Shown here: one piece after another, positions 1,255 to 27,611 of the stretch
Layout: each line of letters begins with the position of its first letter
Numbering within the stretch: position 1 is the stretch's first letter
Assembly: GCF_003696215.1 (NCBI RefSeq)
Contig: NZ_RFFG01000017.1
Coordinates: 1-64,000 of the forward strand
Direction: 5' to 3'
DNA: 64,000 nt
Source of the DNA: Actinomadura harenae
Lineage (GTDB): Bacteria; Actinomycetota; Actinomycetes; Streptosporangiales; Streptosporangiaceae
The notes under the pieces: generated by a model
The model's database searches: none
What the model saw: only the letters and a program-made list of their open reading frames with translations
Told to the model about the DNA's origin: nothing
Translations under genes and position numbers: made by a program

Positions 1255-3063
1255 ATGGCACTGGGCTCGCTGCTTCCCGACTTCGCGCCCGGCGGTTCCG
1301 GCCGGATCCCGCTGGTCCAGCGGGTGGCGCGGTGGGCGCGGGAGCGGCCGGACGACCCGTCCTGGACGTTCGTGGAGTACTCGTCCGACCCGTCCGGCAT
1401 CCGGACCACGCTGACCTGGGCGGAGAGCGACCGGCGGGCGCGGGCGATGGCGACCCGGCTGCGGCGGGCCGCCGATCCCGGCGACCGGGTGGCGCTGCTG
1501 CTGCCGCAGACGCCCGACTACCTGATGACGATGCTCGGCGCGATGCTGGCGCACGTCGTCGCCGTCCCGCTGTTCTCGCCCGACCTGCCCGGCTACGCGG
1601 ACCGGCTCATCGGCGCGTACACCGACTCCGAGCCCGCCGTGGTCGTCACCTCGCGCGGCGCGCTCCCGCAGGTCGAGAAGTTCCTCGCGGACCACGACGT
1701 GCCGCGCCCGAAGGAGATCGTGATCGCCGAGGACGTCGACGTGTCCCTCGCGGACGCGTGGACGGACGAGCCGGTCGGCTTCGACGACCTCGCCTACCTC
1801 CAGTACACGTCCGGCTCGACGCGCCGTCCGGCCGGGGTGGAGATCACGCACGGGAACATCACCGCGAACGCCAGCCAGATGTGGGCGGGCTGGGCGCCCG
1901 AGCGGCCGGACCCCGAGCTGGTCAGCTGGCTGCCGCTGTTCCACGACATGGGCCTGATCGCGACGATGGCGATGCCGCTGGTGAACGGCGACCACGTGAT
2001 CTACACCGAGCCGATGGCGTTCATCATGAACCCGATGCGGTGGATGCGGCTGATCGCCGAGCGGCCGAACAAGAACGTCTACACGGCCGCGCCGAACTTC
2101 GCCTACGAGTACGTCGTCGCGCACGCGACCCCGCAGAAGCTGGACGGCCTGGACCTGTCCGGCCTTGTGACCTGCCTGAACGGCGCGGAGCCGATCCGTC
2201 CGGCGACGCTGTCGGCGTTCGCGGAGAAGCTCGCGCCCGCCGGGCTGCGGGCGGGCGCGCAGGCCCCCGGCTACGGGCTGGCCGAGGCGACGGTGTTCGT
2301 GTCGGCGGCCGCCGAGGACGCCCCGCCCAAGGTGATCACCGTCGACCGGGAGGCGCTCACGCAGGGCCGGGCCGTCGTGGTGGCCGAGGACGCCGTGAAC
2401 GCCAACCCGCTCGTCTCCTGCGGACGTCCCGTCGGGCAGATCGTCGCGATCGTCGACCCGGAGACCCGCCGCGAGCGGCCGGACGGCGTCGTCGGCGAGA
2501 TCTGGGTGCACGGCCCGAACACCGCGCCCGGCTACTGGCGCAACTCCGAGCGCAGCCAGGACACCTTCGGCGGACGCCTCGCCGAGCCCGGCGACCTGCC
2601 CGAGGGCCCGTGGACGAAGACGGGCGACTACGGCATCGCGCGCGAGGGCGAGCTGTACGTCACCGGCCGCATCAAGGACCTCATCATCGTCGACGGCCGC
2701 AACCACTACCCGCAGGACGTCGAGCTGACGACGGAGGAGGCGCACCCGGCGGTCCGCGCCGACCACGTCGCGGCGTTCGCCGTGCCGGGCGGGGAGACCG
2801 AGCTGCTGGTCGTCGTCGCCGAGCGGAACCGGCGGGTGCCGCTGGCCCGGCTCGACCTCGCCGAGGTGGAGAACGCCGTGCGCGGCGCGGTCAACGTGGA
2901 GCACGAGATGAGCGTCCACGCGTTCGTCCTGATCGAGCCGGGTGGCGTGTCGCGCACCTCGTCCGGCAAGATCGCCCGAGCCGCCACCCGGCGGCGGTAC
3001 CTCGCCGGGGAGCTCGCCACCACCGAGGCGAGGCTCGCGACGCGGGCGGCCGCACGCGGATAG
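1255..3063 (+). CDS. Fatty acyl-AMP ligase (FadD32-like FAAL)
   Basis: A 602-residue ANL-superfamily enzyme, the usual FAAL length. The adenylation P-loop YTSGSTRRPAGV begins at residue 184; SWLPLFHDMGL, the FAAL-type NGAEPI, GYGLAEAT (about 340), TGDYG with Asp458, GRIKDLIIVDGRNHYPQDVE and the C-terminal SSGKI with Lys572 are all present. Enzymes of this group activate a fatty acid as the acyl-adenylate and pass it to a carrier protein. I chose ATG 1255, behind a GGGAG-like site, because 61 extra residues from 1072 would be Arg/Pro-rich and unlike the family. The MmpL gene follows after 51 bp. The N-terminal carrier domain of the PKS at 19753 is the obvious acceptor in this window, by analogy with FadD32/Pks13; that partnership is inferred. 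Confidence 0.92.
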   Translation: MALGSLLPDFAPGGSGRIPLVQRVARWARERPDDPSWTFVEYSSDPSGIRTTLTWAESDRRARAMATRLRRAADPGDRVALLLPQTPDYLMTMLGAMLAHVVAVPLFSPDLPGYADRLIGAYTDSEPAVVVTSRGALPQVEKFLADHDVPRPKEIVIAEDVDVSLADAWTDEPVGFDDLAYLQYTSGSTRRPAGVEITHGNITANASQMWAGWAPERPDPELVSWLPLFHDMGLIATMAMPLVNGDHVIYTEPMAFIMNPMRWMRLIAERPNKNVYTAAPNFAYEYVVAHATPQKLDGLDLSGLVTCLNGAEPIRPATLSAFAEKLAPAGLRAGAQAPGYGLAEATVFVSAAAEDAPPKVITVDREALTQGRAVVVAEDAVNANPLVSCGRPVGQIVAIVDPETRRERPDGVVGEIWVHGPNTAPGYWRNSERSQDTFGGRLAEPGDLPEGPWTKTGDYGIAREGELYVTGRIKDLIIVDGRNHYPQDVELTTEEAHPAVRADHVAAFAVPGGETELLVVVAERNRRVPLARLDLAEVENAVRGAVNVEHEMSVHAFVLIEPGGVSRTSSGKIARAATRRRYLAGELATTEARLATRAAARG

Positions 3064-3114: not shown

Positions 3115-5745
3115 ATGCTCGGGGGGCTGGGCCGTCTCATCCAACGGCAGCGCTGGACCAGCCTCGTCCTGATCCTGCTGATCACGGGGTTCGCGGCGCT
3201 CTGGGGCGCGGGCGTGCTGGCGAAGTTCAAGCAGGGCGGGTTCGAGGATCCCAAGGCGTCCTCGACCACCGTCGCCAAGCTCGGCTCGACCTATTTCGGG
3301 AGCACCAACCCCGACGTGCTCGTGCTCTACAAGAGCGACACGATGACGGTGGACGACCCGCGCTACCAGGCGGCGGTCGTCTCCACGGTCGCGCGGCTGC
3401 CGAAGGCGTACGTCAGCCAGATCATCACGTACTGGTCGTTCGACAAGAAGTCGGACGCCGACAACCTCGCCTCGCGCGACCGGCACCAGACGATCGTCAC
3501 CCTGAAGATCGCCGGGGCGAACGACACCGTGCGCGGGGAGAACTACCTCGCGGTCAAGGACCATCTCAAGGCGCCCGGGCTCGACACCCGGCTCGGCGGC
3601 GGGTTCCCGCTCGGCACCGAGTTCGGCACGCAGGTCGTCGCGGACATCGTGCACGCCGAGACGATCACGGCGATCCCGCTGTTCGTGCTGCTGGTGATGC
3701 TGTTCGGCGCGGTGACGGCGTCGCTGCTGCCGATGGTCGTCGCGCTGTTCTCGGTCCTCGGCGGGCTCGCCGTCCTGCACCTGGTGACCTACGTCGCGGA
3801 CGTCACGTCGATGGCGCTCGAGGTCGTCACGATGATGGGCGTCGGCCTCGCCATCGACTACTCGCTGTTCGTGGTGAGCCGGTTCCGCGAGGAGCTGGAG
3901 CACGGCCAGCGCGCCGCCGGGCTGCCGCCTGGGAAACCCTGGAAACAGGGGGCGACGCGGGCCGACCGGCAGGCGGCGAAGAAGGCGCACCGGGCGCTGC
4001 CGCGGGACGAGCGGCGGACCGTCCGCCGGGAGTACAAGAGCGCGCTCAAGCCGGTCGTGCGGACCGCGCTCGGCCGGACGCTCGCCACCGCCGGTCGGAC
4101 GATCATGGTGTCCGGCGTGACCGTGTCCGCCGCCCTCGCCGGCCTGCTCCTGTTCCCGCAGATGTTCCTGCGGACGATCGGCCTGGCCGGGATCGCGACC
4201 GTGCTGGTCGCGGTGTTCGGCGCGACCGTCCTGCTGCCGACGATGCTCGCGCTGCTCGGCCCGAAGGTCGAGTTCGGGCGGATGCCGTGGCGGCGCCCGG
4301 ACGCGCACCGCGACCCGGACTCCGGTTTCTGGTTCCGGCTCGGCACCAGCGTCATGCGGCGTCCGCTGCCGTACTTCGCGGCCGTCCTGGTGGTTCTCGG
4401 CGTGATGTTCGGGCCGTTCCTGCACGTCCAGTTCGGGTCGATCGACGCGCGCGTCCTGCCGAAGGACAGCCCGTCGCGCGGGGTGTTCCAGACCGTCCAG
4501 AGCCAGTTCCCGAACCAGACGGCCGAGCCGATCGACGTCGTCCTGTCCGGGGACCTGGTGCCGAGGCACTGGACGCCGTCGAGGAAGGGCGACAACATCC
4601 CGCCCTTCCTGGAGGACTTCCGCAGGCGGCTCGCCGCGATGCCCGGCGTGACGGACGCCAAGTTCACCGGTTACGCGGGCGACTATCCCGGCGTCCGGAT
4701 CTCGGTCACGCACAAGTACGCGCCCATGGACGAGCACGCCCAGCGGCTGGTGAAGGACATCCGGCACCTGTCCCTCTCCAAGGACGGCGTCCCGATGCAC
4801 ATCGACGTCGGCGGCGCCACCGCGGGCCAGATGGACCTGATGTCGAGCCTCATCCGGACGCTGCCGAAGATGGCGCTGTTCGTCGGCGTCGCGACGTTCG
4901 TCCTGCTGTTCATGTTCTTCGGGTCGGTGGTGCTGCCGCTCAAGGCGATCGTCATGAACGTGCTGTCCATCGGGGCGTCGTTCGGCGCGATCGTGTGGGG
5001 CTTCCAGTACGGGCACCTCGCGGGCGTCCTGGACTTCACGCCGACCGGAAGCGTCGAGGCGACCTCGATGATCCTCATCCTGTCGGTCGTGTTCGGCCTG
5101 TCCATGGACTACGAGGTCTTCCTGCTGTCCCGGATCCGCGAGGAGTGGGACCACAGCCACGACAACCGCATGGCCGTCGCGCGCGGCATGCAGAAGACCG
5201 GCTCGATCATCACGAGCGCCGCGCTGCTGTTCCTCGTCGTCATCGCCGGGTTCTCGATGGCCGGGATCACCGTGGTGAAGCTGATCGGCGTCGGCATGTT
5301 CGTCGCCGTCACGGTGGACGCGCTGCTCGTGCGGTCCCTGCTCGTCCCGGCGACCATGCGGTTCATGGGACGCGCGAACTGGTGGCTCCCGGGCTTCCTC
5401 GCGGGCCTGCACGCGGCCCTCGACCTGCGGGAGCGGGACGAGCCCCTGCCCGGTACGCCCGCCCCGGCGGCGGCCGCTCCCGCGCCGCGCGGGCCCGCGG
5501 AGGCCGCGCCGGGCGTGATCGCGGTCGACTGGAAGAGCACCCCGGCGACGGCGAACGGGGAGTCGCGTTCGGGCACGTCAGAGGCGGTGCCGGACATGTC
5601 GGCGGACGGTCCGTGGCGGCCCTGGGCGGGCGGACGGCCGGAACCGGGAACGGCCCTTCCGGGTGACTCCCGGCGTGAGATAGTTCCCAACCACGATGGT
5701 TCAGGCTGGAGCTGGAACACCGTCAAGGAGAACGATGACCCGTAG
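3115..5745 (+). CDS. MmpL-family RND lipid transporter
   Basis: An 876-residue polytopic protein with the RND/MmpL plan: TM1 near residues 17-35, a large extracytoplasmic loop, a TM bundle near 185-370, a second loop, and a second bundle near 580-760. The two proton-relay Asp-Tyr pairs are visible in GLAIDYSLFVVSRFREE (Asp248) and LSMDYEVFLLSRIREE (Asp665). The C-terminus is a short Pro/Ala-rich cytoplasmic tail. GGAGG stands just before the ATG. MmpL proteins export lipids or siderophores in mycolata. Position between a FAAL and an Ag85-like esterase points to a lipid substrate. The last 11 bp overlap the next gene, so the three genes are probably one operon. Confidence 0.93.
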   Translation: MLGGLGRLIQRQRWTSLVLILLITGFAALWGAGVLAKFKQGGFEDPKASSTTVAKLGSTYFGSTNPDVLVLYKSDTMTVDDPRYQAAVVSTVARLPKAYVSQIITYWSFDKKSDADNLASRDRHQTIVTLKIAGANDTVRGENYLAVKDHLKAPGLDTRLGGGFPLGTEFGTQVVADIVHAETITAIPLFVLLVMLFGAVTASLLPMVVALFSVLGGLAVLHLVTYVADVTSMALEVVTMMGVGLAIDYSLFVVSRFREELEHGQRAAGLPPGKPWKQGATRADRQAAKKAHRALPRDERRTVRREYKSALKPVVRTALGRTLATAGRTIMVSGVTVSAALAGLLLFPQMFLRTIGLAGIATVLVAVFGATVLLPTMLALLGPKVEFGRMPWRRPDAHRDPDSGFWFRLGTSVMRRPLPYFAAVLVVLGVMFGPFLHVQFGSIDARVLPKDSPSRGVFQTVQSQFPNQTAEPIDVVLSGDLVPRHWTPSRKGDNIPPFLEDFRRRLAAMPGVTDAKFTGYAGDYPGVRISVTHKYAPMDEHAQRLVKDIRHLSLSKDGVPMHIDVGGATAGQMDLMSSLIRTLPKMALFVGVATFVLLFMFFGSVVLPLKAIVMNVLSIGASFGAIVWGFQYGHLAGVLDFTPTGSVEATSMILILSVVFGLSMDYEVFLLSRIREEWDHSHDNRMAVARGMQKTGSIITSAALLFLVVIAGFSMAGITVVKLIGVGMFVAVTVDALLVRSLLVPATMRFMGRANWWLPGFLAGLHAALDLRERDEPLPGTPAPAAAAPAPRGPAEAAPGVIAVDWKSTPATANGESRSGTSEAVPDMSADGPWRPWAGGRPEPGTALPGDSRREIVPNHDGSGWSWNTVKENDDP

Positions 5746-6766
5746 GCCGCGTCGCCCCGTCTCCCGCACGATGCCGACGGTGGCCACGGCCGCCGTCATC
5801 GCCGGTGCCCTGCTTCCCCTCACGGCGACGACCGGGACGGCGGACGCCGCGACCCTCGCGAAGGCCGACGACGGCGCGTCCATCGCCGCGTACAAGTGGC
5901 TGAACAAAACGAAGACGGCGTTCGACATCACGGTCGAATCGCCCGCGCTCGGCGCGCAGCGCAAGGTCCGCGTGCTGCTGCCGAAGGGCTACAGGTTCTC
6001 GTCCCCGAAGGCGTGGCCGGTCGTGTACGCCTACCACGGCGGCAACGACTCCTACGTCTCGTGGACGCGCAGCTCCGACATCCAGAGCGTCGCGTCCAAG
6101 TGGGGCGTCATGGTGGTGATGCCGGAGGGCGCGAACGGTTCCTACACGAACTGGTTCAACTACGGGAAGGGCGGCACTCCGCGCTGGGAGGACTTCCATA
6201 TGAAGGAGGTCCGGCAGCTCGTCGAGCGGAACTACCACGCGGGCGCGTCGCGCGCGGTCATGGGCATCTCGTCCGGGGCGGAGGGCGCGTGCACCTACGC
6301 CGGACGGTATCCCGGCGAGTTCCGGTTCGCGGCGTGCTTCAGCGGCGTCCTGTCGATGAGCCTGCCCGGAATCCCGGCGCTGCTCATGTACACCAACACC
6401 AAACCCGGCGTCGACCCGAACGCGATCTGGGGCATCCCGCGCGTTGACCAGGCGAACTGGGACGCGCACGACCCGGTGAAGCTGCTGTCCAAGGTCCGCG
6501 GGACGCGGTTCTACGTGTCGGCGGGCAACGGCACGCCCGGCCCCTTCGACAAGCCCGGCACCGCACCCTGGGACATCGGCTACCTCAGCGAGAAGGCCGT
6601 CAACCCGACCGTCCAGGACTTCGCGAAGCGGGCGCGGCAGCTGCACATCCCGATCACGGCGCACATGTACGGTCCCGGACGTCACTCGTGGCCGTACTGG
6701 AAGCGCGAGATGCACACCGCATGGCCGCAGATCATGAAGGCCATCGGGGCCAAGCCCGTCCGCTGA
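5735..6766 (+). CDS. Secreted antigen-85/esterase-D-like alpha/beta hydrolase
   Basis: A 343-residue secreted protein: signal peptide about residues 1-38 with cleavage near TADA, then an esterase fold. Visible are PVVYAYHGG (oxyanion region), the nucleophile motif GISSG with Ser179, and GRHSWPYWKREM near the C-terminus, the place and context of the catalytic His in antigen 85 mycolyltransferases. Ag85 homologues move acyl chains between trehalose or wall acceptors outside the cell; simple esterase activity is the alternative. ATG 5735 has an AAGGAG site and overlaps the MmpL stop by 11 bp, which suggests translational coupling and a role in handling the exported lipid. Confidence 0.85.
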   Translation: MTRRPRRPVSRTMPTVATAAVIAGALLPLTATTGTADAATLAKADDGASIAAYKWLNKTKTAFDITVESPALGAQRKVRVLLPKGYRFSSPKAWPVVYAYHGGNDSYVSWTRSSDIQSVASKWGVMVVMPEGANGSYTNWFNYGKGGTPRWEDFHMKEVRQLVERNYHAGASRAVMGISSGAEGACTYAGRYPGEFRFAACFSGVLSMSLPGIPALLMYTNTKPGVDPNAIWGIPRVDQANWDAHDPVKLLSKVRGTRFYVSAGNGTPGPFDKPGTAPWDIGYLSEKAVNPTVQDFAKRARQLHIPITAHMYGPGRHSWPYWKREMHTAWPQIMKAIGAKPVR

Positions 6767-12007: not shown

Positions 12008-12022
12008 CGCAGGGGGTGGCGT

Positions 12023-13440: not shown

Positions 13441-13527
13441 GGCGGCCTCCTTGCTCACGGTGGGTGAAGTGATCGTAGCCAGCCCCCATCATGCGCGTCG
13501 GCGACGCAGACATCTCGGCACTTTCTG

Positions 13528-13564: not shown

Positions 13565-13642
13565 TAGTGCACCATGGACCCGTACCCGGTCCAGCGAGTT
13601 GTCGCGAGCCGCTCCAAGGCCGTGACAGTGAGTGAGGTCGAG

Positions 13643-13924: not shown

Positions 13925-14020
13925 CCCGCCCGATTCCTGATCACGGGCGCGCGCTGGGATGCCGGTAGTTCCGTCAGCCGGATTCTGGGGCGCGTGCCTC
14001 GCCAAGCCATCGGAGTTCCG

Positions 14021-14317: not shown

Positions 14318-14442
14318 GCATCGAGGTCCTGTCCTCCGCACGCTCACCGCCCTGATCGTCGGGCAACGGATCACATCGCGATGCTGACGCGCCTGTCGGC
14401 CGGCCATGGGCACCAGGCGCTGGACAAGGAGGATCAGGAGAG

Positions 14443-14925: not shown

Positions 14926-15017
14926 AACTCCTGACGAGATGGCGTACTCCGGCCGGAAGCCGTTGGCCAACCGAGGCGGAGGTGAGTCAAGATCGCCTCA
15001 ACGTCGAGGGAGGCGGC

Positions 15018-15449
15018 ATGGTGACGGCTGAGCGGTTGGATCTGGCCCTGCTGCGCGATGACGAAGGCAACAGCGTGCGCATCACCGTGCTCGGCCCCTT
15101 GCAGGGTGTGGCCGGTGGGCTCTCCGCGGAGATCGTCGTCGACACGCCGTTCGTGGCAGGCCGCGTTGCCCTCTCGTTGTGGCGATCTCGGCTCACCGAG
15201 TGGGGCGAGGCACTGGACCGCCTGGGGGCCGGTGAGGACATCGCCTGGCTGCACGTCCAGCGCGGGCCGGCCGTCCACATCCACTTGAACGGCGAGCGTG
15301 ACTGCCCCGAGGTCGTCGTTGAGGACGTTCTCGTCTCGATGACGACCGTGCGGGTGCCCATCGACCTGCCGTCCGACTGGATCGCAACCCATCGAGGCAT
15401 GTTGGCCGCCGTCCTCGACGCCTGGGACGGGCACCTGTCACCGGAGTGA
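15018..15449 (+). CDS. Hypothetical protein, possibly DUF5959-like
   Basis: 143 residues from ATG 15018, which has GGGAGG six bp upstream; a start at 14982 is possible. The sequence alternates beta strands and short helices (VRITVLGPLQG, LSAEIVVDTPFVAG, VHIHLNGERDCPEVVVEDVLVSM). I associate it only loosely with the DUF5959 group of actinobacterial proteins. It follows the GHKL ATPase by 92 bp and may be co-transcribed. Function unknown. Confidence 0.65.
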   Translation: MVTAERLDLALLRDDEGNSVRITVLGPLQGVAGGLSAEIVVDTPFVAGRVALSLWRSRLTEWGEALDRLGAGEDIAWLHVQRGPAVHIHLNGERDCPEVVVEDVLVSMTTVRVPIDLPSDWIATHRGMLAAVLDAWDGHLSPE

Positions 15450-15530
15450 GTTCAGGCAGCGCCGCCAGATCAGGGAGGTTCTGCTGGTCCCGGGGGATGG
15501 GCGAGGTGGGGTCCTGTAGGTTCGCGCGGT

Positions 15531-16136
15531 GTGGGTGGGATTGCGGGGGCCGTGGCTTCGGCGGCTGGGATGTTCGCGGGGACGAACATCGACGACATCA
15601 TCGTTCTGACGGTGTTGTTCCTGTCGTCGCGGGCGACCGGTAGTCCTCGGGTCTGGCGGATCTGGGGTGGGCAGTACGCCGGGTTCGCCCTTCTGGTTCT
15701 GGTGTCGGTGGTCGCGGCGCTCGGGCTGACGATCGTGCCGGACGACTGGGTGGGGCTTCTTGGGCTTGTGCCTCTTGGGCTGGGCGTGAAGGGGCTGGTC
15801 TCGGCCGTCCGGGCGAAAGGGGACGGGGAGGGCGGGGTGCCCGCCGTTGCGGCGACTCTGCCTGCGGTGGCGGGGGTGACGATCGCCAACGGGGCCGACA
15901 ACATCTCCGTCTACACGCCGGTGTTCCGGACGGTCGGGACGGCGTCCACGGTGGTGATGGTCTGCGTGTTCCTGGTCGGGGTCGCGCTGTGGTGCCTGGC
16001 GGGGTCCGTGCTCGGGTCGCACAAGAAGGTCATCGAGCTCGTCGAGCGGCATGGGCACTGGTTCGTGCCGACCGTGTTCGTCGTGATCGGCGGAATCATC
16101 GTGGTCGAGTCCGGCGTTCTCGGACGGTTCGTCTAG
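15531..16136 (+). CDS. CadD-family cadmium/cation resistance transporter
   Basis: 201 residues with five or six hydrophobic segments. The motifs FAGTNIDDIIVLTVLF at the N-terminus and ANGADNISVYTPVF in the middle, each with acidic residues inside a membrane helix, are typical of CadD/LysE-superfamily cation exporters. The start is GTG 15531. It ends tail to tail with an ArsR sensor (4-bp overlap) whose metal site is intact, and the stump of a P-type ATPase lies just beyond, so this is the remainder of a metal-resistance locus. Confidence 0.88.
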   Translation: MGGIAGAVASAAGMFAGTNIDDIIVLTVLFLSSRATGSPRVWRIWGGQYAGFALLVLVSVVAALGLTIVPDDWVGLLGLVPLGLGVKGLVSAVRAKGDGEGGVPAVAATLPAVAGVTIANGADNISVYTPVFRTVGTASTVVMVCVFLVGVALWCLAGSVLGSHKKVIELVERHGHWFVPTVFVVIGGIIVVESGVLGRFV

Positions 16137-16420
16137 TCCTGCGGGTCGGTGAGGCCCAAGCGCAGGTGTTCCACGTGGTAGAGCGCCTGGTCGAGCAGGG
16201 CGGACACGTGGTCGTCGTACAGGGCGTAGACGATGTGGCGGCCCTGGCGGGTGCCGGTGACCAGGCCGAGGTTGCGGAGCAGGCGTAGCCGGTGGGAGCA
16301 GGCGGACTGCTCCATGCCGACCTCGGTGGCCAGTTCGGTCGCCGGGAGGGGCCCCTCGCGCAGGCGGGCCAGGATCAGCAGCCGGGACGGCGTGGCGAGG
16401 GCCTGGAGGGTGTTGGCCAC
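16133..16420 (-). CDS. ArsR/SmtB-family metal sensor, alpha-5 site
   Basis: 95 residues with the winged HTH (LPATELATEVGMEQSACSHRLRLL). The last helix contains D-x-H-x10-H-x2-H in YDDHVSALLDQALYHVEH, which matches the alpha-5 metal site of CzrA/SmtB/NmtR sensors that respond to Zn, Co or Ni. A CadC-type alpha-3N Cys pair is absent. It should repress a metal-efflux gene; the convergent CadD gene cannot share its promoter, while the ATPase stump at 16447 is divergent and in the right place for the original target. Confidence 0.9.
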   Translation of the reverse strand: MANTLQALATPSRLLILARLREGPLPATELATEVGMEQSACSHRLRLLRNLGLVTGTRQGRHIVYALYDDHVSALLDQALYHVEHLRLGLTDPQD

Positions 16421-16659: not shown

Positions 16660-17883
16660 TCACAGGCGGTCGAGGAGCTTCACAGCGCGGGTGACGCCGT
16701 CCTCGGCGCGGAGGCGGGCGCCCAGGTCGGCGGCGCGGGTCCTGATCGTCTCGGAGGACGTCGCCCGGCGGATCGCCTTCGCGAGGGCCGGGGCGGTCAT
16801 CGTCCGGAACGGGACGGGGGCGGGGCCCGCGCCGAGCGCCGCGACGCGTTCGGCCCAGTAGGGCTGGTCGCCGAAGAACGGCGTGACCACGGACGGGACG
16901 CCCGCGCGCAACCCGGCGGCGGTCGTCCCCGCGCCGCCGTGGTGGACGACGGCGGCCATGCGCGGGAAGAGCCACGTGTGCGGGACGTCCCGGACGGCCA
17001 GGACGTCATCGTCCGAGGTCGCGGGGTCGCCCTGGACGATGCCGCGCCGTCCGGCGAGCCGCAGCGCCGTCCGGACGGTCAGGTCGGTCATCCGCGGGTC
17101 CTTCGGGACCATGCTGCCGAATCCGACGTAGACGGGCGGCGGGCCGTCGGCGAGGAAGGCGGCGAGGTCGTCCGGCGGGGTGAAGTCCGGTTCGTCCAGC
17201 GTCCAATATCCCGTGAGATGGACGTGGGCGGGCCAGTCCGCCGGACGCGGGACGACGTGCTCGCTGAAGCAGGCGAGGACGAGCGGCTCGTCACGGGGCG
17301 CGCCGCGAAGGGGGAGCGGCGGGAGGCCCAGCGCGTCCCGCCGCCACGGGTTGAGGAACGGGCGGGAGAGCTGCCAGGCGATCTGGTCGACGGCGGCGAA
17401 GCTCGCGCGGTTGAGCGGCCCGCCGAGCGGGCGCGGGACGAACGGGTGGGGGAACGCGGCGGTCGGACGGCTCGGCTGGAAGTGGATCAGCGCCCACGGG
17501 ACGTCCAGGTGCTCGCCGAGGTGCCGGGGGAGCAGGCCGAGGGTGGGGCCGAGCAGCAGGTCGGCGTCCTTGGACCCGGCGAGGCACTCGTCCAGCAGGC
17601 GGCGCGCGGCCGGGCCGAGGATGCGCCGGAACCCGGTCAGGAAGCGCACCGGGTTCCGGCCGCCCGCGAGGAGTTCCTGGCCCTCGTCGGACGCGAGGAT
17701 CTCGGCGGGGTCGACGGTCAGCGGCGCGAGGTCGAGCCCGGAGGCGTGCGCGAGCGGCGCGTAGCGGGCGCTCGCGACGAGGCGGACGCGGTCGCCGCGC
17801 GCGGCGAGGGCGCGGCCGAGGGCGACGCACGGCTGGATGTCGCCGCGCGACCCGGCCGCGAAGATCACGACGGTCCGGCTCAT
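16660..17883 (-). CDS. UGT-like family 1 glycosyltransferase
   Basis: 407 residues, GT-B fold. The N-terminal half begins VVIFAAGSRGDIQPCVALGRALAARG, the acceptor-side signature of actinobacterial natural-product and sterol-type glucosyltransferases. The C-terminal donor domain has YVGFGSM and VVHHGGAGTTAAGLRAGVPSVV-(P)FFGDQPYWAERV. GGAG precedes ATG 17883. It follows the MFS gene by 30 bp in one operon, divergent from the PKS. It could glycosylate the PKS product; a lipid or macrolide-inactivating role is the alternative. Confidence 0.9.
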   Translation of the reverse strand: MSRTVVIFAAGSRGDIQPCVALGRALAARGDRVRLVASARYAPLAHASGLDLAPLTVDPAEILASDEGQELLAGGRNPVRFLTGFRRILGPAARRLLDECLAGSKDADLLLGPTLGLLPRHLGEHLDVPWALIHFQPSRPTAAFPHPFVPRPLGGPLNRASFAAVDQIAWQLSRPFLNPWRRDALGLPPLPLRGAPRDEPLVLACFSEHVVPRPADWPAHVHLTGYWTLDEPDFTPPDDLAAFLADGPPPVYVGFGSMVPKDPRMTDLTVRTALRLAGRRGIVQGDPATSDDDVLAVRDVPHTWLFPRMAAVVHHGGAGTTAAGLRAGVPSVVTPFFGDQPYWAERVAALGAGPAPVPFRTMTAPALAKAIRRATSSETIRTRAADLGARLRAEDGVTRAVKLLDRL

Positions 17884-17913: not shown

Positions 17914-19515
17914 CTACCGGTGCTCGGTCTCCCAGGCGTCGCCGCGGGGGATGCGGAGCGGCCCGGTCGTCTCGCTGTCCTCGGGATCGTACGGGCGGTA
18001 CCAGCCGTCCGGTGGCGGGGGGAGGCCGCGGCGGAGGTTCTCGTCCAGGTAGGAGTGCAGCCCGGAGCGTCCGCGCCGTCCGCCGGAACCCGCCGCGACC
18101 AGCACGTCGTCCGACGCCTGTTCCGCGGCGGCGCCGTCCTTCAGTCGGTGTCGGCGCGGCAGGGTCGTGGCGCTGATGAGCCCGCCGACCGCGACGAGCG
18201 CCGCGCCGAGCAGCAGCCCGGACGCGATGCTGTGCCGGAACCGCTCCGTCGCCGCCGCCGACGCCTGCCCGGGCAGGTCCTGCACGAGGACGCCGACGAC
18301 CGCGATGCCGAACGCGCCGGACGCCTCCCGGATCACGTTGAGGATGCCGCTGGCGACCCCCGTCCGCTCCTCCGGGATGGCCTTGAGGACGTACATCGCG
18401 AGCGGCATGACCAGCGCGGATCCGGCGCCGACGGTCAGGACGCCGGGCAGCAGGTCGGTGTAGCCGTCGCCGCGCCGGACGAGCGAGAACCAGGCCATGC
18501 CGAGCGCCATCAGGCCCATGCCGGAGCCGACCGCGACACGCGGCCCGATCCGTCCGGCGAGCCAGAACGCGACCGGGGTCAGCGCCATGATCACGAACGC
18601 GGCGGGCAGCAGCACCAGGGACGACTCGAGCGCGGTGAAGCCCAGGTAGTCCTGCATGAAGGTGGCCGAGTAGAACAGCATGGCCGTGAACCCCATGCCC
18701 TGGAGCATCTGGGACACCAGGCCGCCGACGAACACCCGGTTCCGGAAGAAGCCGAGGTGGATCATCGGGTCGCGGGACCACCGCTCGACCGCGACGAAGC
18801 AGGTGAACGCGACGAGCGCGAGCGCGAACACGCCGAGCACCGGACGCGCCGTCCACCCGTCCCGCTGGACGGCCTCCAGTCCGTAGACCAGCGCGAACAG
18901 CATCGTCGCGGAGATCAGGACGCCCGGCATGTCGACCCGGGCGTCGGCGTTCTCGGCCTTGGACGTCAGCACCACGGCGCCGAGCGCGATCACCAGCACG
19001 CCGGGCACGATGTTGACGAGGAAGATCCAGCCCCAGGGCCAGTAGGTGACGATGGACGCGCCGATCGGCCCGCCGAGGGCGGTCGCGGCGCCGCCCGCGG
19101 AGACCCAGACGATCGTGCCGAGCGACCGCTGCTTGTCGGTGCGCCCGACGGTGACCATGACGAGCGTCGCGGGGAGCGCGAGCGCGGCGCCCGCGCCCTG
19201 GACGACGCGGGCGAGGATGAGGGTCCCGGCGTCCGGCGCGAGCCCGCAGACGGCGGACGCGGCGGTGAAGATCGTCATGCCCGTGGTGAAGCCGACGCGG
19301 CAGCCGTAGATGTCGGTGATCCGGCCGCCGGCGACCATCAGGCACGAGAACATCAGCATGTAGCCGGTCGTGACCCACTCGCCGGCCGAGCCGGACATCC
19401 CGAGGTCGCGGCGGATCGTGGGGATCGCCTGGATGACCACCGTGTTGTCCATGGTGGTCATGAAGGCGCTCACCGCGACGACGAGCAGTGCCCACCGGTA
19501 TCGTCCTCGGGTCAC
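17914..19515 (-). CDS. DHA2-family MFS exporter (14 TM)
   Basis: 533 residues from GTG 19515, preceded by AGGGGG; a TTG at 19563 would add 16 residues. The protein starts with the DHA2 motif FMTTMDNTVVIQAIPTIRRDLG, has RITDIYGCRVGFTTG (motif A) and LARVVQGAGAALALP (motif C region), and 14 predicted TM segments up to about residue 430, then a polar cytoplasmic tail of about 95 residues rich in Arg/Gly/Pro. It leads the MFS-glycosyltransferase operon that faces the PKS gene across a 237-bp promoter region, so it may export the PKS product or protect the producer. Confidence 0.9.
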   Translation of the reverse strand: MTRGRYRWALLVVAVSAFMTTMDNTVVIQAIPTIRRDLGMSGSAGEWVTTGYMLMFSCLMVAGGRITDIYGCRVGFTTGMTIFTAASAVCGLAPDAGTLILARVVQGAGAALALPATLVMVTVGRTDKQRSLGTIVWVSAGGAATALGGPIGASIVTYWPWGWIFLVNIVPGVLVIALGAVVLTSKAENADARVDMPGVLISATMLFALVYGLEAVQRDGWTARPVLGVFALALVAFTCFVAVERWSRDPMIHLGFFRNRVFVGGLVSQMLQGMGFTAMLFYSATFMQDYLGFTALESSLVLLPAAFVIMALTPVAFWLAGRIGPRVAVGSGMGLMALGMAWFSLVRRGDGYTDLLPGVLTVGAGSALVMPLAMYVLKAIPEERTGVASGILNVIREASGAFGIAVVGVLVQDLPGQASAAATERFRHSIASGLLLGAALVAVGGLISATTLPRRHRLKDGAAAEQASDDVLVAAGSGGRRGRSGLHSYLDENLRRGLPPPPDGWYRPYDPEDSETTGPLRIPRGDAWETEHR

Positions 19516-19620
19516 GTGGCTCGCCGCTTCCCCCTGTTGAGCGTGAGTGGTAGTGCTGCCCAACTATCCCATCAGGGCACTTCGCTTGCCAGGGGCCCCC
19601 GGGATCGCCCGCCGGAGGGT

Positions 19621-19640
19621 CTTGTCATCGGCGTGACAAG
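19621..19640. promoter_or_regulatory. Palindromic operator TTGTCA-N6-TGACAA between MFS and PKS genes
   Basis: CTTGTCATCGGCGTGACAAG is a 20-bp inverted repeat with a six-base centre (CG/CG inner pairs also match). It lies 113 bp before the PKS start and about 105 bp from the MFS start, where one protein could control both directions. The only other copy that I found is at 1038-1058 before the FAAL operon. Confidence 0.62.
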
Positions 19641-19752
19641 TGGCCCCTGAGAAAAGTGGCCTGTGTGCGCATCGTGAGACGGTCGAAATAGGACATCGTG
19701 GACCTCCTCCGTGCCGCACGAACGATCCCGCGTTATTGGGGGAACCCCGCAG

Positions 19753-22700
19753 ATGCACTCCCGTGAGGGGATCGGCGAGGACGCGATCCGCCGGTACCTG
19801 GTCGAGCAGATCGCGCGCCGGTCCCGCGTCGAACCCTCCGAGGTGGATCCGGACCGTCCGCTGGAGGAGTTCGGACTCGCCTCCCGCGACGCCGTCGCGG
19901 TCGCGGGGGAGCTGGAGCAGCTTCTCGGGCGTGCGCTTCCCGCGACCCTGGTGTGGGAGCACCCCACGATCAACCGGCTGTCCGCCGCGCTCGCGAACGG
20001 CGCCGACCTCGTGGTCCCCGCCGCGACGCCCGCGCCGGTCGCCCGGGTCCGTGAGGACGAGCCGATCGCGGTGGTCGGCGTCGGGCTGCGGATGCCCGGC
20101 GGCGGCGAGCGCGACCTGACCGGCGCGGACGACTTCTGGCGGTTCCTCCTCGACCGCGGGGACGGCGTCAGCGAGGTCCCGGGCGGCCGCTGGGACCCGT
20201 TCGACGACGGATCGCCCGAGGTCGGCGACCTGCTCGCCCGGACGACCCGGCTCGGCGGCTTCCTCTCCGACATCGCCGGGTTCGACGCGGAGTTCTTCGG
20301 GATCACGCCGCGCGAGGCCGCCGTCATGGACCCGCAGCAGCGGCTCGTCCTCGAGGTGGCGTGGGAGGCGTTCGAGCACGCGGGCCTCGCGCCCGCCGCG
20401 CTGCGCGGCACCCGGACCGGCGTGTTCGTCGGCGTCTCCGCGCCCGAGTACGCCGCGTTCACCGCGTCCGACCTGGCGGCGCTGGAGCCGTTCACCGCGA
20501 CCGGCGCGGCGCTGAGCGTGATCGCCGGGCGCCTCTCCTACCTGCTGGACCTGCGCGGGCCGTCCATGATCGTGGACACCGCGTGCTCGTCGTCGCTGGT
20601 CAGCACGCATCTGGCCGTCCAGGCGCTGCGCAGTGGCGAGGCGGACGTGGCGCTCGCGTCCGGCGTGAACGTGCTGCTGTCGCCGACCGTGACGATGACC
20701 TTCGACCTGGCGGGCGGGACGGCGTCCGACGGGCACTGCAAGGCGTTCGACGCGAGCGCGGACGGCATGGTCCGCGCCGAGGGGTGCGGCGCGGTCGTCC
20801 TGAAGCGGCTCGCGGACGCCGAGCGCGACGGCGACCGGGTGCTCGCGGTGGTCCGCGGCACCGGCGTGAACTCCGACGGGCGCTCGAACGGCCTGGTCGC
20901 GCCGAACTCCGAGGCGCAGAAGGCGCTGCTGCGCGACGTGTACGCGACCGCCGGGATCGACACCCGCGAGGTCGACTACGTCGAGGCGCACGGGACGGGC
21001 ACGTTCCTCGGCGACCCGATCGAGGCGCGCGCGCTCGGCGAGGTGCTGGGCGTGGGACGCGACGCCGACCGGCCGCTGCTGATCGGCTCGGTGAAGTCGA
21101 ACCTCGGGCACATGGAGGCGGCGGCGGGCGTCGCGGGGCTGGTCAAGGCCGTCCTCGCGCTGCACCACGGGGTGATCCCGCCGTCCGCGCACTACAAGGA
21201 GCCGAACCCGCACATCCCGTTCGACGACCTGCGGCTCGCGGTCGTCGCGGAGGAGACGCCGTGGCCGCGGCGCGGTCACGCGCGCCGGGCGGGCGTCTCG
21301 GGCTTCGGCTTCGGCGGGACGAACGCGCACGTCCTCCTGGAGGAGGCCCCGGCCGCCGAGGTCGCGCGCGAGGACGTTCCGGTTCGCATCTATCCGCTGT
21401 CCGACACGTCCGATGAGCGGGTCCGCGCGTACGCGGCCGAGCTGCTCACCTGGCTCGACGGCCAGGACGCCCAGGACGCCCACGACGCGGACCTGGGCGG
21501 ACGTCGCGTCGCGGACGCCGATCTCGCGCGGACGCTGCGCCGCCGCGACGGACGCGGACGGGCCCGCGCCGCCGTCGCCGCCCGCGACCGCGCCGGGCTG
21601 GTCGACGGCCTGCGGGCGCTGGTCGACGGCCGTCCACACCCGGGGCTGGTCAGCGGCACGGCCGTCGGCGTTCCGGGACGTCCGGTCTGGGTGTTCTCCG
21701 GGTACGGCGCGCAACGGGCCGGCATGGCGCAGCGGCTCCTGGAGGAGGAGCCCGCGTTCGCCGAGGCCATCGACGACCTGGACGCGTTGTTCGCCGAGGA
21801 GGGCGGGCCCGAGCTGTGGGCCGTCCTGGAGGAGGGCGAGCCGGTCGAGGGCGGCCCGGCCGCCACGATGCCGCTGCTGTTCGCGATCCAGATCGGCCTC
21901 GCGCGCATGTGGGCGGCGTACGGCGTCACGCCCGGCGCGGTCGTCGGGCACTCGATGGGCGAGGTCGCGGCGGCCGTCGTCGCCGGAAAGCTGTCCCTCG
22001 CGGACGGCGTCAGGGTCATCTGCCGCCGCTCGCGCCTGCTGGACCGGCTGATCGGCGGGGGCGCGATGGCCGTGCTCGGCGCGTCCGCCGCCGACGTCGC
22101 CCGCCTCGCGGACGGCCTGGACGAGGTGTACGCGGCCGTCCACTCCTCGCCGAAGCAGACCGTCGTCACGGGCGACGCCGCGCAGGTCGCCGAGGTCGTG
22201 AGGCGCGCCGAGGCCGAGGGCCGCCTCGCCCGGACGATCAAGGCCGAGGGCGCGGGCCACTCCCCGCAGGTCGACCCGCTCCTGCCCGACCTGCGCGACG
22301 CGCTCGCCGAGATCGGCGCGAAGCCCGGGACCCCGCTCGCGGACGGCGTCCGCCTCTACACGACCGCGCTCGACGACCCGCGCGCCGACGTCCCGATGGA
22401 CGCCGAGTACTGGGCGCACAACCTGCGCAACCCGGTGCGTCTCACCGACGCCATCGCGGCGGCCGCCGACGACGGCCACCGGACGTTCATCGAGGTCAAC
22501 GCCCACCCGATCCTCTCCCACGCCGTCGGCGAGACCCTGGACGGCGTCGGCGCGTTCGTCACGCACACGCTGAAGCGCGCCCCCAGGGGCCAGGAGACCG
22601 ACGACACCCTGACCTTCCACGCGCGGCTCGCCGGACTCGCCGCGCACGGCCACGCCATCACGACGCCCGGGGGCGGCGCGATCGCGGACGTGCCGTCGGC

Positions 22701-25700
22701 GTCCTGGCGGCACGAACGTCACTGGATCGACACCTCGCGCCGCGGACGCGGCGCCGGGCGGGACGAGCACCCGCTGCTCGGCGCGCACGTCGAACTCCCC
22801 GGCGAGGACCGGCACGCCTGGCGCGCCGACGTCGGCACCGCCGCCCAGCCGTGGATCACGCCGACGCAGGGACTGAGCCTGCTGCCGCCCGCCGCGTTCG
22901 CGGAGATGGCGCTCGCCGCCGGAGCCGAGGCGCTCGGCGTCGAGTCGGTGCGTGTCAACAGCCTGTGGATAGAGCGGCCGCTCGCGCTCGACGCGTCCAC
23001 GACCGTCACGACCACGTTCGGCGAGGACGAGCAGCGCGTCGAGATCCACGCCCTCACCCCCGCCGGAACCTGGACCCGCCTGGCCAGCGCCGACGTCGGC
23101 GAGGACCACCACGCGCCCGCGTCCCCCCTGGACGGCCCGGCCACCGAGATCGCGGCCGCGCAGCGCGGAAGCCGCCACTACCGGCTGCACCCGGAGGTCT
23201 TCGAACGCGCGCTCGCCGTCCTCTACGCCGAGGCGGGCGGGGACGCGCTCGTCGAGACGATCGGCAGCCTGCGCGTCCACGGGCCGACGCACCGGGGCGG
23301 CCACGTCCGCGCCACGGTCGACGGCGACCAGGGCGACCTGCGGATCCTCGGCCCGGACGGTCAGGTGCTCGTCGAGGCCACGGGCATCACGCTGCGCCGC
23401 GCCGACCGCGCCGGCCTGCCCGTCCCGCTCGCGGACAAGCTGGCCGAGGTCGTCTGGGACGCGTCGGAAACCCCCGAAGCGGTCGTGTCCGAAGCGTCCT
23501 GGTCGCTGCTCGCCGACGACACCGACCCCTTCGCCACGGACGTCGCCGACGAGCTGAACCGCCGGGGCCAGACCGTCACACGTCAGCCTCTCGACGCTGT
23601 TCCGTCCGCTGACGTGCACGGTGTCGTGCTGCTGGCGGGCGACCTCGCCGACGAGGAGCTCGTGCTGGCCGTCGCGCGCACGTCCGTCGCGATGCAGGAC
23701 GGCCCGCGCCTCTACGTCGCCACCCGCGACGCGCTGCCCGTCCTGCCCGGTGAAGCCGGGAAGCTCCGGCAGGCGCACGTTCGCGCGCTCACCCGCGTCC
23801 TGGCGTTCGAGCGGACCGTCCAGCGCGCCACCGTCGTGGACGCCGCCCGCGCGGAAGACCTGGTCACCGAACTCCTCGCGGACACCCCGTCCCGCGAGAC
23901 CGCCTACCGCGACGGCACCCGCCGCACCGCCCGCCTCGACCGCGCGCGGCTCCCCGCCCACCCGGCGGGCGACACGGGCGACACGGGCGCGACGGGCGAC
24001 TCCCACGCCGGTTCCGGTGACTCCGCCAGGGCGGACGCGCGCGCGGTGACACGGAAGCGGCGGCGGGTCGTCCGGCGGGGCGGCGCGTATGTCATCACCG
24101 GCGGTTACGGCGGGATCGGGCTGGTCACGGCGCGTCTGCTCGCCGAGCGCGGGGCCGCGCGGATCGTGCTTTCCGGACGGTCCGGGCCGTCCGCCGACGC
24201 CGAGAAGGCGATCGCGCGGATGCGCGAGGACGGCGTGGACGTCGGCGTCGTCCTCGGCGACATCGCCGAGCCCGGCGTCGCCGAGCGGCTCGTCGAGGCC
24301 GCGCGCGAGGGCGGGGCCACGCTGCGAGGGATCGTGCACGGCGCGGGCGCGATCGACGACCGCATGCTCGCCGACCTCGGCCCGGACGACCTGCACCGCG
24401 TGTGGGGGGCGAAGGTGGACGGCGCGCGGGCGCTGTCCGAGGCCACCTGGGACGCCGAACTCGACTGGTTCGTCCTGCACTCGTCGGCCGCCGCGCTGCT
24501 CGGCTCGCCGGGGCAGGCCGCCTACGCCGCCGCGAACGCCGCGCTGGACGCGCTCGCCGCGCACCGCCGCGCGCACGGACGTCCCGCCACGTCGATCGGC
24601 TGGGGCACGTGGTCCCAGGTCGGCGGGGCCGCGGACCTCCGGGTCGCAGTGATCGAGCCGATCACGCCGGACGAGGGCGCGGAGGCCCTGGAGGCGCTGC
24701 TCGCCGCCGACGCGACCCTCGCGGGCGTGCTGCGGTTCGACCCGTCCGCCGCCGTGGGCCTGTTCCCCGAGATCACGAAGATGCCGTACTTCGCGGCGCT
24801 CACCGAGGCCGCGGAGGGCCAGGTCGTCGACGCGGGCGACTGGCCGGGGATCGAGGCCGTGCGGGCGCTGCCCCCGGACGAGGCGCGCGCCCGGATCGCC
24901 GCGCAGGTCAGGTGGCGGATCGCGTCCGTGCTGGGCTTCGCGCCCGACCGGCTCGACCCGTCCGTGCCGCTCACCGACCTCGGGCTGGACTCGCTGGTCG
25001 CCGTCCGGATCAAGAGCGGCGTCGAGCACGACCTGGGGCTGACCGTCCCGGCGTCGGTGCTGCTCAAGGGCGCCTCGGTGGACGTGTTCGAGGAGTGGGC
25101 CGCCGAGGAGCTCGGCCTCGCCGGCGCTTCGGCGCCCACCACGACGACCGCCGTGTCGAACGCGGTGTCCAATGCGGAGTTCGGGTACGTGATGGCGCGC
25201 GACGCCGCCGAGCGCCTGGCCGTCCGGTTCTTCGAGGACGTCCTCGGCCTCGACCGCGTCTCCGTCGTCGCCGACTTCCACGCCGACCTCGGCGGCACGG
25301 CCGAGCAGGCCGACCAGGTCGTGGCCCTGCTGCTGAAGGAGCTGGGCGGGGAGGCCACGCGCGGCGAGCTGTTCGCGACGCCGACGGCCGAGAACGTCGC
25401 CGAGTACATCCGGGCCGCGGACGAGGAGGCCGCGCGGCAGATCGTCCGGCCGCTGAAGCCGTCCGGGGACCGGCGGCCGCTCTTCATCGCGCACCCGGCG
25501 GGCGGCACCACCGCCTGCTACCGGCAGCTCATCGACCTGCTCGGCGACGACCAGCCGGTGTACGGGCTCGAGCGGTTCGACGACGCGCCCTCGGTCGAGG
25601 AGCGCGCGGCACGCTATGCCGAGCAGATCGTCGAGGTCCAGCCGGAGGGCGCGTTCCGCCTGGCCGGATGGTCGTTCGGCGGCGTCCTGGCGTACGAGAC

Positions 25701-26274
25701 CGCGCGGCGGCTCCGCGAGGCCGGACGCGAGGTCGAGTTCGTCGCGCTGTTCGACGCGGGCCTGCCGCTGCCCGTGGACGACGAGTCCGACACCCTCGCC
25801 CGCCGGTTCGCCGCGTTCACCGACTACATCAACGAGACCTACGACCTGGACGTGGCGCTCACCTACGAGGAGCTGTCCGGGCTGCCCGAGGAGCAGCAGT
25901 TCGCGCTGGTCATGGAGCGCGCGGCGCCGCTCGCCGAGCTGATCCCGCCGGCCGCGCTGCACCACCAGCTCACCTCGCACCAGGACACCCGGTCCCTCGA
26001 GGCGTACGAGCCCCGGCCCTACGACGGCCGTGTCATCCTCTACTACGCGCCCGAGGAGACCCCCTGGGCCGTGAAGGACGCCCGGTACGTCCTGGACGGG
26101 ACGAACGGGTTCGGCCCGCTCTGTCCCGCCCTGGAGAAGGTCGTGATCCCCGGCGTGCACCACCTGAACCTGCTCGACCCGCCCGGCGTGGAGATCCTCG
26201 CAGCCCACCTGGACGGCCGACTCGCCGCCGACACGGCTTCGGACGGCTCGGCGGCCCTGTCTCCGGCCCACTGA
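19753..26274 (+). CDS. Modular type I PKS: ACP-KS-AT-DH*-KR-ACP-ACP*-TE
   Basis: 2173 residues. ACP1 (about 10-80, phosphopantetheine Ser44 in EEFGLASRD). KS (about 102-530) with Cys278 in DTACSSS, His413 in EAHGTGT and His453 in SNLGHMEAA. AT (about 645-950) with GHSMG Ser734 and GAGH 833-836 where malonyl ATs have HAFH and methylmalonyl ATs YASH. DH-like region (about 1005-1290) in which the HxxxGxxxxP His is Thr1036 and the second-half Asp is Glu1151. KR (about 1440-1640) with GGYGGIG, Ser1577/1578, Tyr1591 and an IDD motif. ACP2 Ser1747 in LGLDSL. A further carrier-like domain (about 1815-1890) where DLGG is followed by TAEQ and no Ser. TE (about 1908-2150) with GWSFGG Ser1974. A carrier before the KS plus a C-terminal TE resembles Pks13. 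I chose ATG 19753 over GTG 19711. The CCR gene follows after 20 bp. Confidence 0.93.
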   Translation: MHSREGIGEDAIRRYLVEQIARRSRVEPSEVDPDRPLEEFGLASRDAVAVAGELEQLLGRALPATLVWEHPTINRLSAALANGADLVVPAATPAPVARVREDEPIAVVGVGLRMPGGGERDLTGADDFWRFLLDRGDGVSEVPGGRWDPFDDGSPEVGDLLARTTRLGGFLSDIAGFDAEFFGITPREAAVMDPQQRLVLEVAWEAFEHAGLAPAALRGTRTGVFVGVSAPEYAAFTASDLAALEPFTATGAALSVIAGRLSYLLDLRGPSMIVDTACSSSLVSTHLAVQALRSGEADVALASGVNVLLSPTVTMTFDLAGGTASDGHCKAFDASADGMVRAEGCGAVVLKRLADAERDGDRVLAVVRGTGVNSDGRSNGLVAPNSEAQKALLRDVYATAGIDTREVDYVEAHGTGTFLGDPIEARALGEVLGVGRDADRPLLIGSVKSNLGHMEAAAGVAGLVKAVLALHHGVIPPSAHYKEPNPHIPFDDLRLAVVAEETPWPRRGHARRAGVSGFGFGGTNAHVLLEEAPAAEVAREDVPVRIYPLSDTSDERVRAYAAELLTWLDGQDAQDAHDADLGGRRVADADLARTLRRRDGRGRARAAVAARDRAGLVDGLRALVDGRPHPGLVSGTAVGVPGRPVWVFSGYGAQRAGMAQRLLEEEPAFAEAIDDLDALFAEEGGPELWAVLEEGEPVEGGPAATMPLLFAIQIGLARMWAAYGVTPGAVVGHSMGEVAAAVVAGKLSLADGVRVICRRSRLLDRLIGGGAMAVLGASAADVARLADGLDEVYAAVHSSPKQTVVTGDAAQVAEVVRRAEAEGRLARTIKAEGAGHSPQVDPLLPDLRDALAEIGAKPGTPLADGVRLYTTALDDPRADVPMDAEYWAHNLRNPVRLTDAIAAAADDGHRTFIEVNAHPILSHAVGETLDGVGAFVTHTLKRAPRGQETDDTLTFHARLAGLAAHGHAITTPGGGAIADVPSASWRHERHWIDTSRRGRGAGRDEHPLLGAHVELPGEDRHAWRADVGTAAQPWITPTQGLSLLPPAAFAEMALAAGAEALGVESVRVNSLWIERPLALDASTTVTTTFGEDEQRVEIHALTPAGTWTRLASADVGEDHHAPASPLDGPATEIAAAQRGSRHYRLHPEVFERALAVLYAEAGGDALVETIGSLRVHGPTHRGGHVRATVDGDQGDLRILGPDGQVLVEATGITLRRADRAGLPVPLADKLAEVVWDASETPEAVVSEASWSLLADDTDPFATDVADELNRRGQTVTRQPLDAVPSADVHGVVLLAGDLADEELVLAVARTSVAMQDGPRLYVATRDALPVLPGEAGKLRQAHVRALTRVLAFERTVQRATVVDAARAEDLVTELLADTPSRETAYRDGTRRTARLDRARLPAHPAGDTGDTGATGDSHAGSGDSARADARAVTRKRRRVVRRGGAYVITGGYGGIGLVTARLLAERGAARIVLSGRSGPSADAEKAIARMREDGVDVGVVLGDIAEPGVAERLVEAAREGGATLRGIVHGAGAIDDRMLADLGPDDLHRVWGAKVDGARALSEATWDAELDWFVLHSSAAALLGSPGQAAYAAANAALDALAAHRRAHGRPATSIGWGTWSQVGGAADLRVAVIEPITPDEGAEALEALLAADATLAGVLRFDPSAAVGLFPEITKMPYFAALTEAAEGQVVDAGDWPGIEAVRALPPDEARARIAAQVRWRIASVLGFAPDRLDPSVPLTDLGLDSLVAVRIKSGVEHDLGLTVPASVLLKGASVDVFEEWAAEELGLAGASAPTTTTAVSNAVSNAEFGYVMARDAAERLAVRFFEDVLGLDRVSVVADFHADLGGTAEQADQVVALLLKELGGEATRGELFATPTAENVAEYIRAADEEAARQIVRPLKPSGDRRPLFIAHPAGGTTACYRQLIDLLGDDQPVYGLERFDDAPSVEERAARYAEQIVEVQPEGAFRLAGWSFGGVLAYETARRLREAGREVEFVALFDAGLPLPVDDESDTLARRFAAFTDYINETYDLDVALTYEELSGLPEEQQFALVMERAAPLAELIPPAALHHQLTSHQDTRSLEAYEPRPYDGRVILYYAPEETPWAVKDARYVLDGTNGFGPLCPALEKVVIPGVHHLNLLDPPGVEILAAHLDGRLAADTASDGSAALSPAH

Positions 26275-26294: not shown

Positions 26295-27611
26295 ATGTCC
26301 GAACTGCTCGAAGCCGTCCGGTCCGGCGCGTCCGGCCGGGAGCTGGCCGAGATCGACCTGCCCACCCGGTACCGCGCCGCGTTCACCCGCAAGGACGAGG
26401 TGGGAATCTTCGCTGGGCAGGCCGACAAGGACGTCCGGCGGTCGATGCACGTCGGCGAGGTCGAGATGCCGGAGATCGCGCCGGACGAGTGCGTCGTCGC
26501 GGTGATGGCGGCGGCGATCAACTTCAACACCGTCTGGTCGGCGATCTTCGAGCCGGTGCCGACGTTCGCGTTCCTGGAGAAGTTCGGACGCCAGGGCTGG
26601 TACGGCGCGCGGCACGACCTGCCGTACCACGTGCTCGGCTCGGACGGCTCGGGCGTCGTCGTCCGCACCGGCGCGGGCGTGAAGCACTGGAAGGTCGGCG
26701 ACCGGGTGGTCATCTCACCGTCCTACGTGGACGAGGAGGACCACGGCTCCTACGACGACGGCATGATGTCCGAGACCCAGCTGGCCTGGGGCTTCGAGAC
26801 GAACTTCGGCTCGCTCGGCGACTACTGCGTCGTCAAGGCGAACCAGCTGATCAGGAAGCCCGCCCACCTGACCTGGGAGGAGGCGGGCTCCAACACGCTG
26901 TGCGCGGCGACCGCCTACCGCATGCTCGTCGGGACGCACGGCGCCCGCATGAAGCAGGGCGACGTCGTCCTCGTTTGGGGCGCGACGGGCGGGCTCGGCT
27001 CGTTCGCCACCCAGCTCGTCCTCAACGGCGGCGGGATCCCGGTCGCGGTCGTGTCGTCCGAGGAGAAGGCGGAGATCGTCCGCGCGCAGGGCTGCGAGCA
27101 CGTCATCGACCGCACCGAGCTCGACCTCGGCGAGGACGGGCTGCGCAACCCCAAGGCCGGCCGGATCCTCGGCGAGGCCATCCGCGCCCGGGTCGGCGAG
27201 GACCCGGGCATCGTCTTCGAGTACCTCGGCCGCGAGACGTTCGGGACGTCGGTGTACGTCGCCAAGCGCGGCGGCAAGATCGTCACGTGCGGCTCGTCCA
27301 CCGGCTACAAGCACGAGTACGACAACCGGTTCCTGTGGATGCGGCTGAAGAGCATCATCGGCTCGCACGGCTTCAACTACCACGAGGCCGTGCAGGTCAA
27401 CCGGCTGTTCGGGCTCGGCATGATCCACCCGACCCTGTCCCGCTCCTACACGCTGGAGGACGCGGGCGAGGCGACCCGCGCCGTCCAGACCAACGAGCAC
27501 ATCGGCAAGGTCGCCGTCCTGTGCGGCGCGACCGCCGAGGGGCAGGGCATCGACGACCCGGCGCTGCGCGAGCGCGTCGGCGAGGAGAAGTTCCACCTCT
27601 TCCGCCGCTGA
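26295..27611 (+). CDS. ccrA: Crotonyl-CoA carboxylase/reductase
   Basis: 438 residues, medium-chain dehydrogenase fold with GATGGLGSFATQL as nucleotide site. By alignment in my head with Kitasatospora setae Ccr, the CO2-handling residues are all present: Asn78 (INFNTVW), Phe167-Glu168 (GFETNFG) and His358 (SHGFNYHEA). The enzyme reductively carboxylates 2-enoyl-CoAs with NADPH and CO2, giving ethylmalonyl-CoA or longer alkylmalonyl-CoA. GGAGGA precedes ATG 26295, 20 bp after the PKS stop, so it is almost certainly made with the PKS and supplies its extender unit. A housekeeping ethylmalonyl-CoA pathway copy is less likely in this position. Confidence 0.95.
   Translation: MSELLEAVRSGASGRELAEIDLPTRYRAAFTRKDEVGIFAGQADKDVRRSMHVGEVEMPEIAPDECVVAVMAAAINFNTVWSAIFEPVPTFAFLEKFGRQGWYGARHDLPYHVLGSDGSGVVVRTGAGVKHWKVGDRVVISPSYVDEEDHGSYDDGMMSETQLAWGFETNFGSLGDYCVVKANQLIRKPAHLTWEEAGSNTLCAATAYRMLVGTHGARMKQGDVVLVWGATGGLGSFATQLVLNGGGIPVAVVSSEEKAEIVRAQGCEHVIDRTELDLGEDGLRNPKAGRILGEAIRARVGEDPGIVFEYLGRETFGTSVYVAKRGGKIVTCGSSTGYKHEYDNRFLWMRLKSIIGSHGFNYHEAVQVNRLFGLGMIHPTLSRSYTLEDAGEATRAVQTNEHIGKVAVLCGATAEGQGIDDPALRERVGEEKFHLFRR

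Follow-up and report, generated by a model that had tools for sequence, protein, structure and literature searches.

An Actinomadura harenae locus within the window (the whole 64,000-nt stretch of DNA that was analysed) probably encodes a mycolic-acid-type condensation system, in which a chain loaded by a fatty acyl-AMP ligase (FAAL) would be joined to an alkylmalonyl unit made by a carboxylating enoyl-CoA reductase (CCR), with reduction taking place on the polyketide synthase (PKS) itself. We give this reading a probability of about 0.68; what it says of chain lengths, of the acceptor and of a role in the envelope is presumed. Four separate genes of the locus (Table 1) have FadD32, MmpL3, PS1/Cmt1/Ag85 and Pks13 as their top relatives in the PDB. 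Against a mycolate-type reading, the NCBIfam cut-offs for FadD32, MmpL3 and Pks13 are all unreached. To our knowledge, Actinomadura is described as mycolate-negative.

Table 1. Genes of the locus and predicted domains of the synthase (window coordinates; parentheses in a domain order mark domains without an active site)
Feature	Coordinates	Strand	Remarks
FAAL	1255..3063	+	Top PDB match FadD32; NCBIfam FadD32 553 bits (cut-off 975)
MMPL exporter	3115..5745	+	MmpL3 closest in PDB; NCBIfam MmpL3 368 bits (cut-off 1400)
PF00756 esterase, apparent signal peptide	5771..6766	+	PDB: corynebacterial mycolyltransferase PS1 best, then Cmt1, Ag85
Glycosyltransferase (GT), EryCIII/UDPGT type	16660..17883	-	Adjoins MFS/PKS side of locus
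MFS exporter	17914..19473	-	Next to PKS
Pks13-like type I PKS, ACP1-KS-AT-(DH)-KR-ACP2-(ACP3)-TE	19753..26274	+	GTG at 19711 is an alternative start
ACP1	19783..19998	+	Ser in FGLASRDAV; compare Pks13 GLSSRDAV
KS	20059..21465	+	Cys-His-His kept
AT	21685..22572	+	GHSMGE; GAGHSPQ motif versus GASHT or GAGHT in Pks13
DH-like domain	22768..23415	+	Without catalytic His
KR	24082..24615	+	NADPH motif TGGYGGIG and Ser-Tyr-Asn intact
ACP2	24916..25083	+	GLDSL intact
ACP3-like carrier	25201..25398	+	Without Ser (DLGGTAEQA)
TE	25474..26220	+	Ser-Asp-His found
CCR	26295..27611	+	20 bases 3′ of PKS

Domain architecture of the synthase

The PKS frame is uninterrupted from either start and has a strong coding signal; a long antisense open reading frame (19564–26271, reverse strand) is explained as a by-product of high GC content. 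Pfam matches to KS (1e-86), AT (1e-73), PKS_DH_N (3e-16), KR (9e-57) and Thioesterase (2e-23), with three PP-binding stretches, and the motifs confirm the order ACP, KS, AT, DH-like, KR, ACP, carrier-like, TE given in the initial annotation. Its other statements on the domains stand as well: the DH that it called dead-looking has lost the catalytic His (TPTQGLSLLPP where HxxxGxxxxP is expected), the KR motifs are present, and the carrier-like domain is the counterpart of the serine-less ACP3 of Pks13, a domain of unknown function (PMC9900942). Since the KR motifs are intact, the simplest interpretation is that the β-keto group would be reduced while still on the enzyme. That mycolic acids depend on a separate reductase, as the same annotation had it, agrees with mycobacteria, in which Rv2509/CmrA (Rv2509/MSMEG4722) reduces the β-oxo group (PMC2568869). 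Pks13 itself, which joins two long chains into 2-alkyl-3-oxo acyl chains, has no reductive domains, whereas the Actinomadura PKS has a built-in KR and a DH without its active site.

An AlphaFold model of the stretch from DH to KR (mean pLDDT 89.7) has as its top solved match the DH-ER-KR region of a mycocerosic-acid-synthase-like (MAS-like) PKS, making this modifying region the best solved counterpart of the predicted fold. Unlike the MAS-like PKSs, however, the Actinomadura PKS has no ER, carries a dead DH, adds ACP1, the serine-less ACP3 and a TE, and has a KS from which the MAS-like KSs branch apart in the KS tree.

The same active-site pattern recurs in the aligned PKS orthologues, the KR of one genome (G012) being the exception. 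There (loci L072/L245; G012; Actinomadura litoris), the KR looks degenerate, with altered Tyr and Asn motifs (AHAASGA), and no GT was seen in the locus. Apparent TGA stops within the PKS genes of relatives did not reappear when the loci were checked with tblastn.

Probable extender supply by the CCR

In mycobacteria, accD4 flanks pks13 (PMC9900942); here the CCR gene stands in its place, and CCR genes are known to cluster with the PKSs that they supply (PMC5187497). The CCR scores 507 bits against TIGR01751, above the cut-off of 379. It keeps the Asn, Phe, Glu and His that we take to be the CO2 site of CCRs. Its top PDB relative, at 57% identity, is the octenoyl-CoA CCR CinF (4a0s), with which it shares A163 and G362 (CinF numbering). 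These two positions, which presumably bear on chain length in CinF, are as in CinF in 108 of 108 CCRs, whereas the crotonyl-CoA enzyme has I and F. The contexts differ: CinF supplies a modular PKS, and the Actinomadura CCR adjoins a single Pks13-like synthase.

The best reason for thinking that the CCR feeds the PKS is that CCR and carboxyltransferase swap between related loci. In families f20 (three loci) and f48 and in f19-g114, the PKS locus has a carboxyltransferase (PF01039) in place of the CCR. These AccD-FAAL-PKS-esterase loci overlap with the Actinomadura locus in partner set and have a related PKS, but differ from it in the DH as well as in the carboxylating enzyme: the DH His is missing in 16 of 16 aligned CCR-linked synthases and present in those of f19 and f48. 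From this exchange of partners, we infer that the CCR would be the source of the alkylmalonyl extender of the PKS, replacing AccD4.

Within f20, four FAAL-PKS-esterase loci (L284–L287, in genomes G568, G358, G080 and G445) encode PKSs of 1311–1414 aa, and the carboxyltransferase was located in L284, L285 and L286. Neither DH nor KR was seen in the L284 PKS, the f20 example scanned with Pfam. In the related PKSs of f48 and f19 (L288–L292, L188 and L189), the DH His is canonical and the KR motifs are mostly intact; among these loci, L288, L290 and L292 alone had a confirmed carboxyltransferase. No CCR was seen in the G347 and G357 loci.

The CCR might instead make ethylmalonyl-CoA, in which case the product would be a glycolipid of a 2-ethyl-3-hydroxy fatty acid and not a mycolate bearing two long chains. 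Crotonyl-CoA is the substrate of many CCRs, and a search of the genome at E 1e-30 found no CCR besides the one next to the PKS, which could therefore serve as a general ethylmalonyl-CoA enzyme. The octenoyl-type residues throughout the CCRs, the labelling of a CCR at 78 of 80 named PKS loci (flanks of 10 kb) and the use of a carboxyltransferase by related loci nevertheless lead us to consider so short a branch unlikely.

Partner genes and their conservation

The esterase aligns with PS1 at Ser (GISSG), Glu (SEKAV) and His (HSWPYW), a Ser-Glu-His triad whose catalytic identity we take from Ag85C. The FAAL gene belongs to the PKS locus yet is not adjacent to the PKS. Between esterase and GT lie about 9.5 kb of unrelated genes (6869–16420; TetR-like and DUF5753 regulators, a CadD transporter and others), an interval that is absent from most relatives and in which G033 has three genes. 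The window also encodes an nSTAND1-WD40 protein of 1229 aa (37810–41499).

With the C-terminal part as query, the PKS was found in 53 of the 59 other genomes of the genus, mostly in single copy. The gene order FAAL-MMPL-(esterase)-GT-MFS-PKS-CCR is kept, without the interval, in most relatives, both across Actinomadura and in other Streptosporangiales genera, although the esterase is often missing; Actinomadura madurae carries the locus (L210). At the 80 named loci, an MFS exporter was labelled in 63 and a GT in 51, counts that, like that of the CCR, undercount distant partners because of the 10-kb flanks. The Ag85-like esterase was present in 12 of 30 loci and the MMPL exporter in 23 of 30, some of the contigs being cut.

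The macrolide-GT-type GT and the MFS exporter that adjoin the PKS would also suit a specialised metabolite, that is, a secreted, glycosylated 2-alkyl-3-hydroxy fatty acid such as a glucolipsin-type macrodiolide, cyclised perhaps by the TE and exported by the MFS protein rather than built into the envelope. A PKS that is near-universal and mostly single-copy in the genus, with MmpL3- and mycolyltransferase-like partners, better fits a structural lipid, and we regard a secreted product as decidedly improbable. No glucolipsin gene cluster was found in the open literature for comparison.

Relationship to Pks13 and to modular synthases

Several comparisons support the PKS as a variant of the Pks13 kind, with ends of Pks13 type. 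First, Pks13 is the top PDB match of the N-terminal ACP-KS-AT (727 bits; MAS next, 689) and matches ACP3-TE over the full stretch at 167 bits, against 100 bits for the runner-up protein. The resemblance of both ends to Pks13 had been proposed in the initial annotation, whose comparison holds for the enzyme but missed the wider context of FadD32-, MmpL3- and Ag85-like genes and the CCR. Against NF040607 (Pks13), the PKS scores 1246 bits, below the cut-off of 2100, and true Pks13s score 2583–2836.

Second, the KS lies outside the modular clade (support 100/100) in the KS trees and, in the larger tree, groups with Pks13, f19, f48 and f20 at 94/94; a position well inside modular macrolide PKSs, named at the outset as the result that would speak against a Pks13 kinship, was thus not found. 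An AU test of CCR-type synthases and modular KSs together versus the rest did not reject that grouping (p 0.387), a result that addresses branching order and not nesting within the modular clade. The branching order within the Pks13-like KS group is not firmly resolved. Because of the KS trees we reject, as having almost nothing to recommend it, the reading of the PKS as an ordinary modular enzyme minus its upstream modules: the order ACP-KS-AT-DH-KR-ACP-TE is known in modular enzymes, but the modular clade excludes this KS, Pks13 is closest to ACP3-TE, and no other PKS match occurs on the contig.

Third, an ACP3-TE profile run over 395 genomes of the class (E 1e-45) retrieved the relatives, genomes of f19, f20 and f48, and the f6 Pks13s. 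Its matches in G541 and G142 are not clearly of the Pks13-like-synthase kind. Two more PKSs of the A. harenae genome (G000:C226:51206 and G000:C189:80008) have KSs that branch near the Pks13-like group.

Proposed pathway and implications

On the mycolic-acid-type reading, the FadD32-like FAAL would convert a fatty acid to acyl-AMP and load it onto ACP1, and the CCR, in the role of AccD4, would turn a medium- or long-chain 2-enoyl-CoA into alkylmalonyl-CoA by reductive carboxylation, as its linkage and pocket residues suggest. Judging from their motifs, AT and ACP2 would accept this extender and the KS would join the two chains; the fused KR would then reduce the β-keto group to give a 2-alkyl-3-hydroxyacyl chain, the mycolic motif, and, with the DH dead, the chain would remain in that form. 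Release by the TE, probably onto a sugar, would be followed by the GT, the MmpL3-like exporter, the MFS protein and the Ag85/PS1-like esterase, which may complete and place an envelope glycolipid.

The mycolic system of Mycobacteriales (Pks13, FadD32, AccD4, MmpL3 and Ag85) shares with this locus the ACP1-KS-AT-ACP2-(ACP3)-TE frame, the FAAL partner, the MmpL3- and Ag85-like partners, and a related KS and ACP3-TE. The Actinomadura locus differs in having a CCR and not AccD4, and in including a GT and an MFS exporter. No Emb arabinosyltransferase was found in the genome, so any lipid would be without an arabinogalactan anchor of that kind. No prior description of the Actinomadura PKS/CCR system was found in the open literature.

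Mycolic acids are taken as a hallmark of Mycobacteriales. With its own reductase and an apparently different side-chain enzyme, the present system may produce an envelope lipid of a mycolic-acid-like type that has so far gone unrecognised in Actinomadura. We see even chances for the broader proposal that Actinomadura and other Streptosporangiales make mycolic-type 2-alkyl-3-hydroxy acids with a reductase fused to the synthase and a branch supplied by reductive carboxylation, Pks13 then belonging, as a single branch, to a larger family of partly reducing synthases. The locus is of more consequence than the PKS enzyme alone. If the proposal is true, there would be an unknown envelope lipid to seek in many genera, A. 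madurae included, a comparison set for the loss of reductive domains in Pks13, and a natural comparison between an α branch made by a carboxylase and one made by a CCR.
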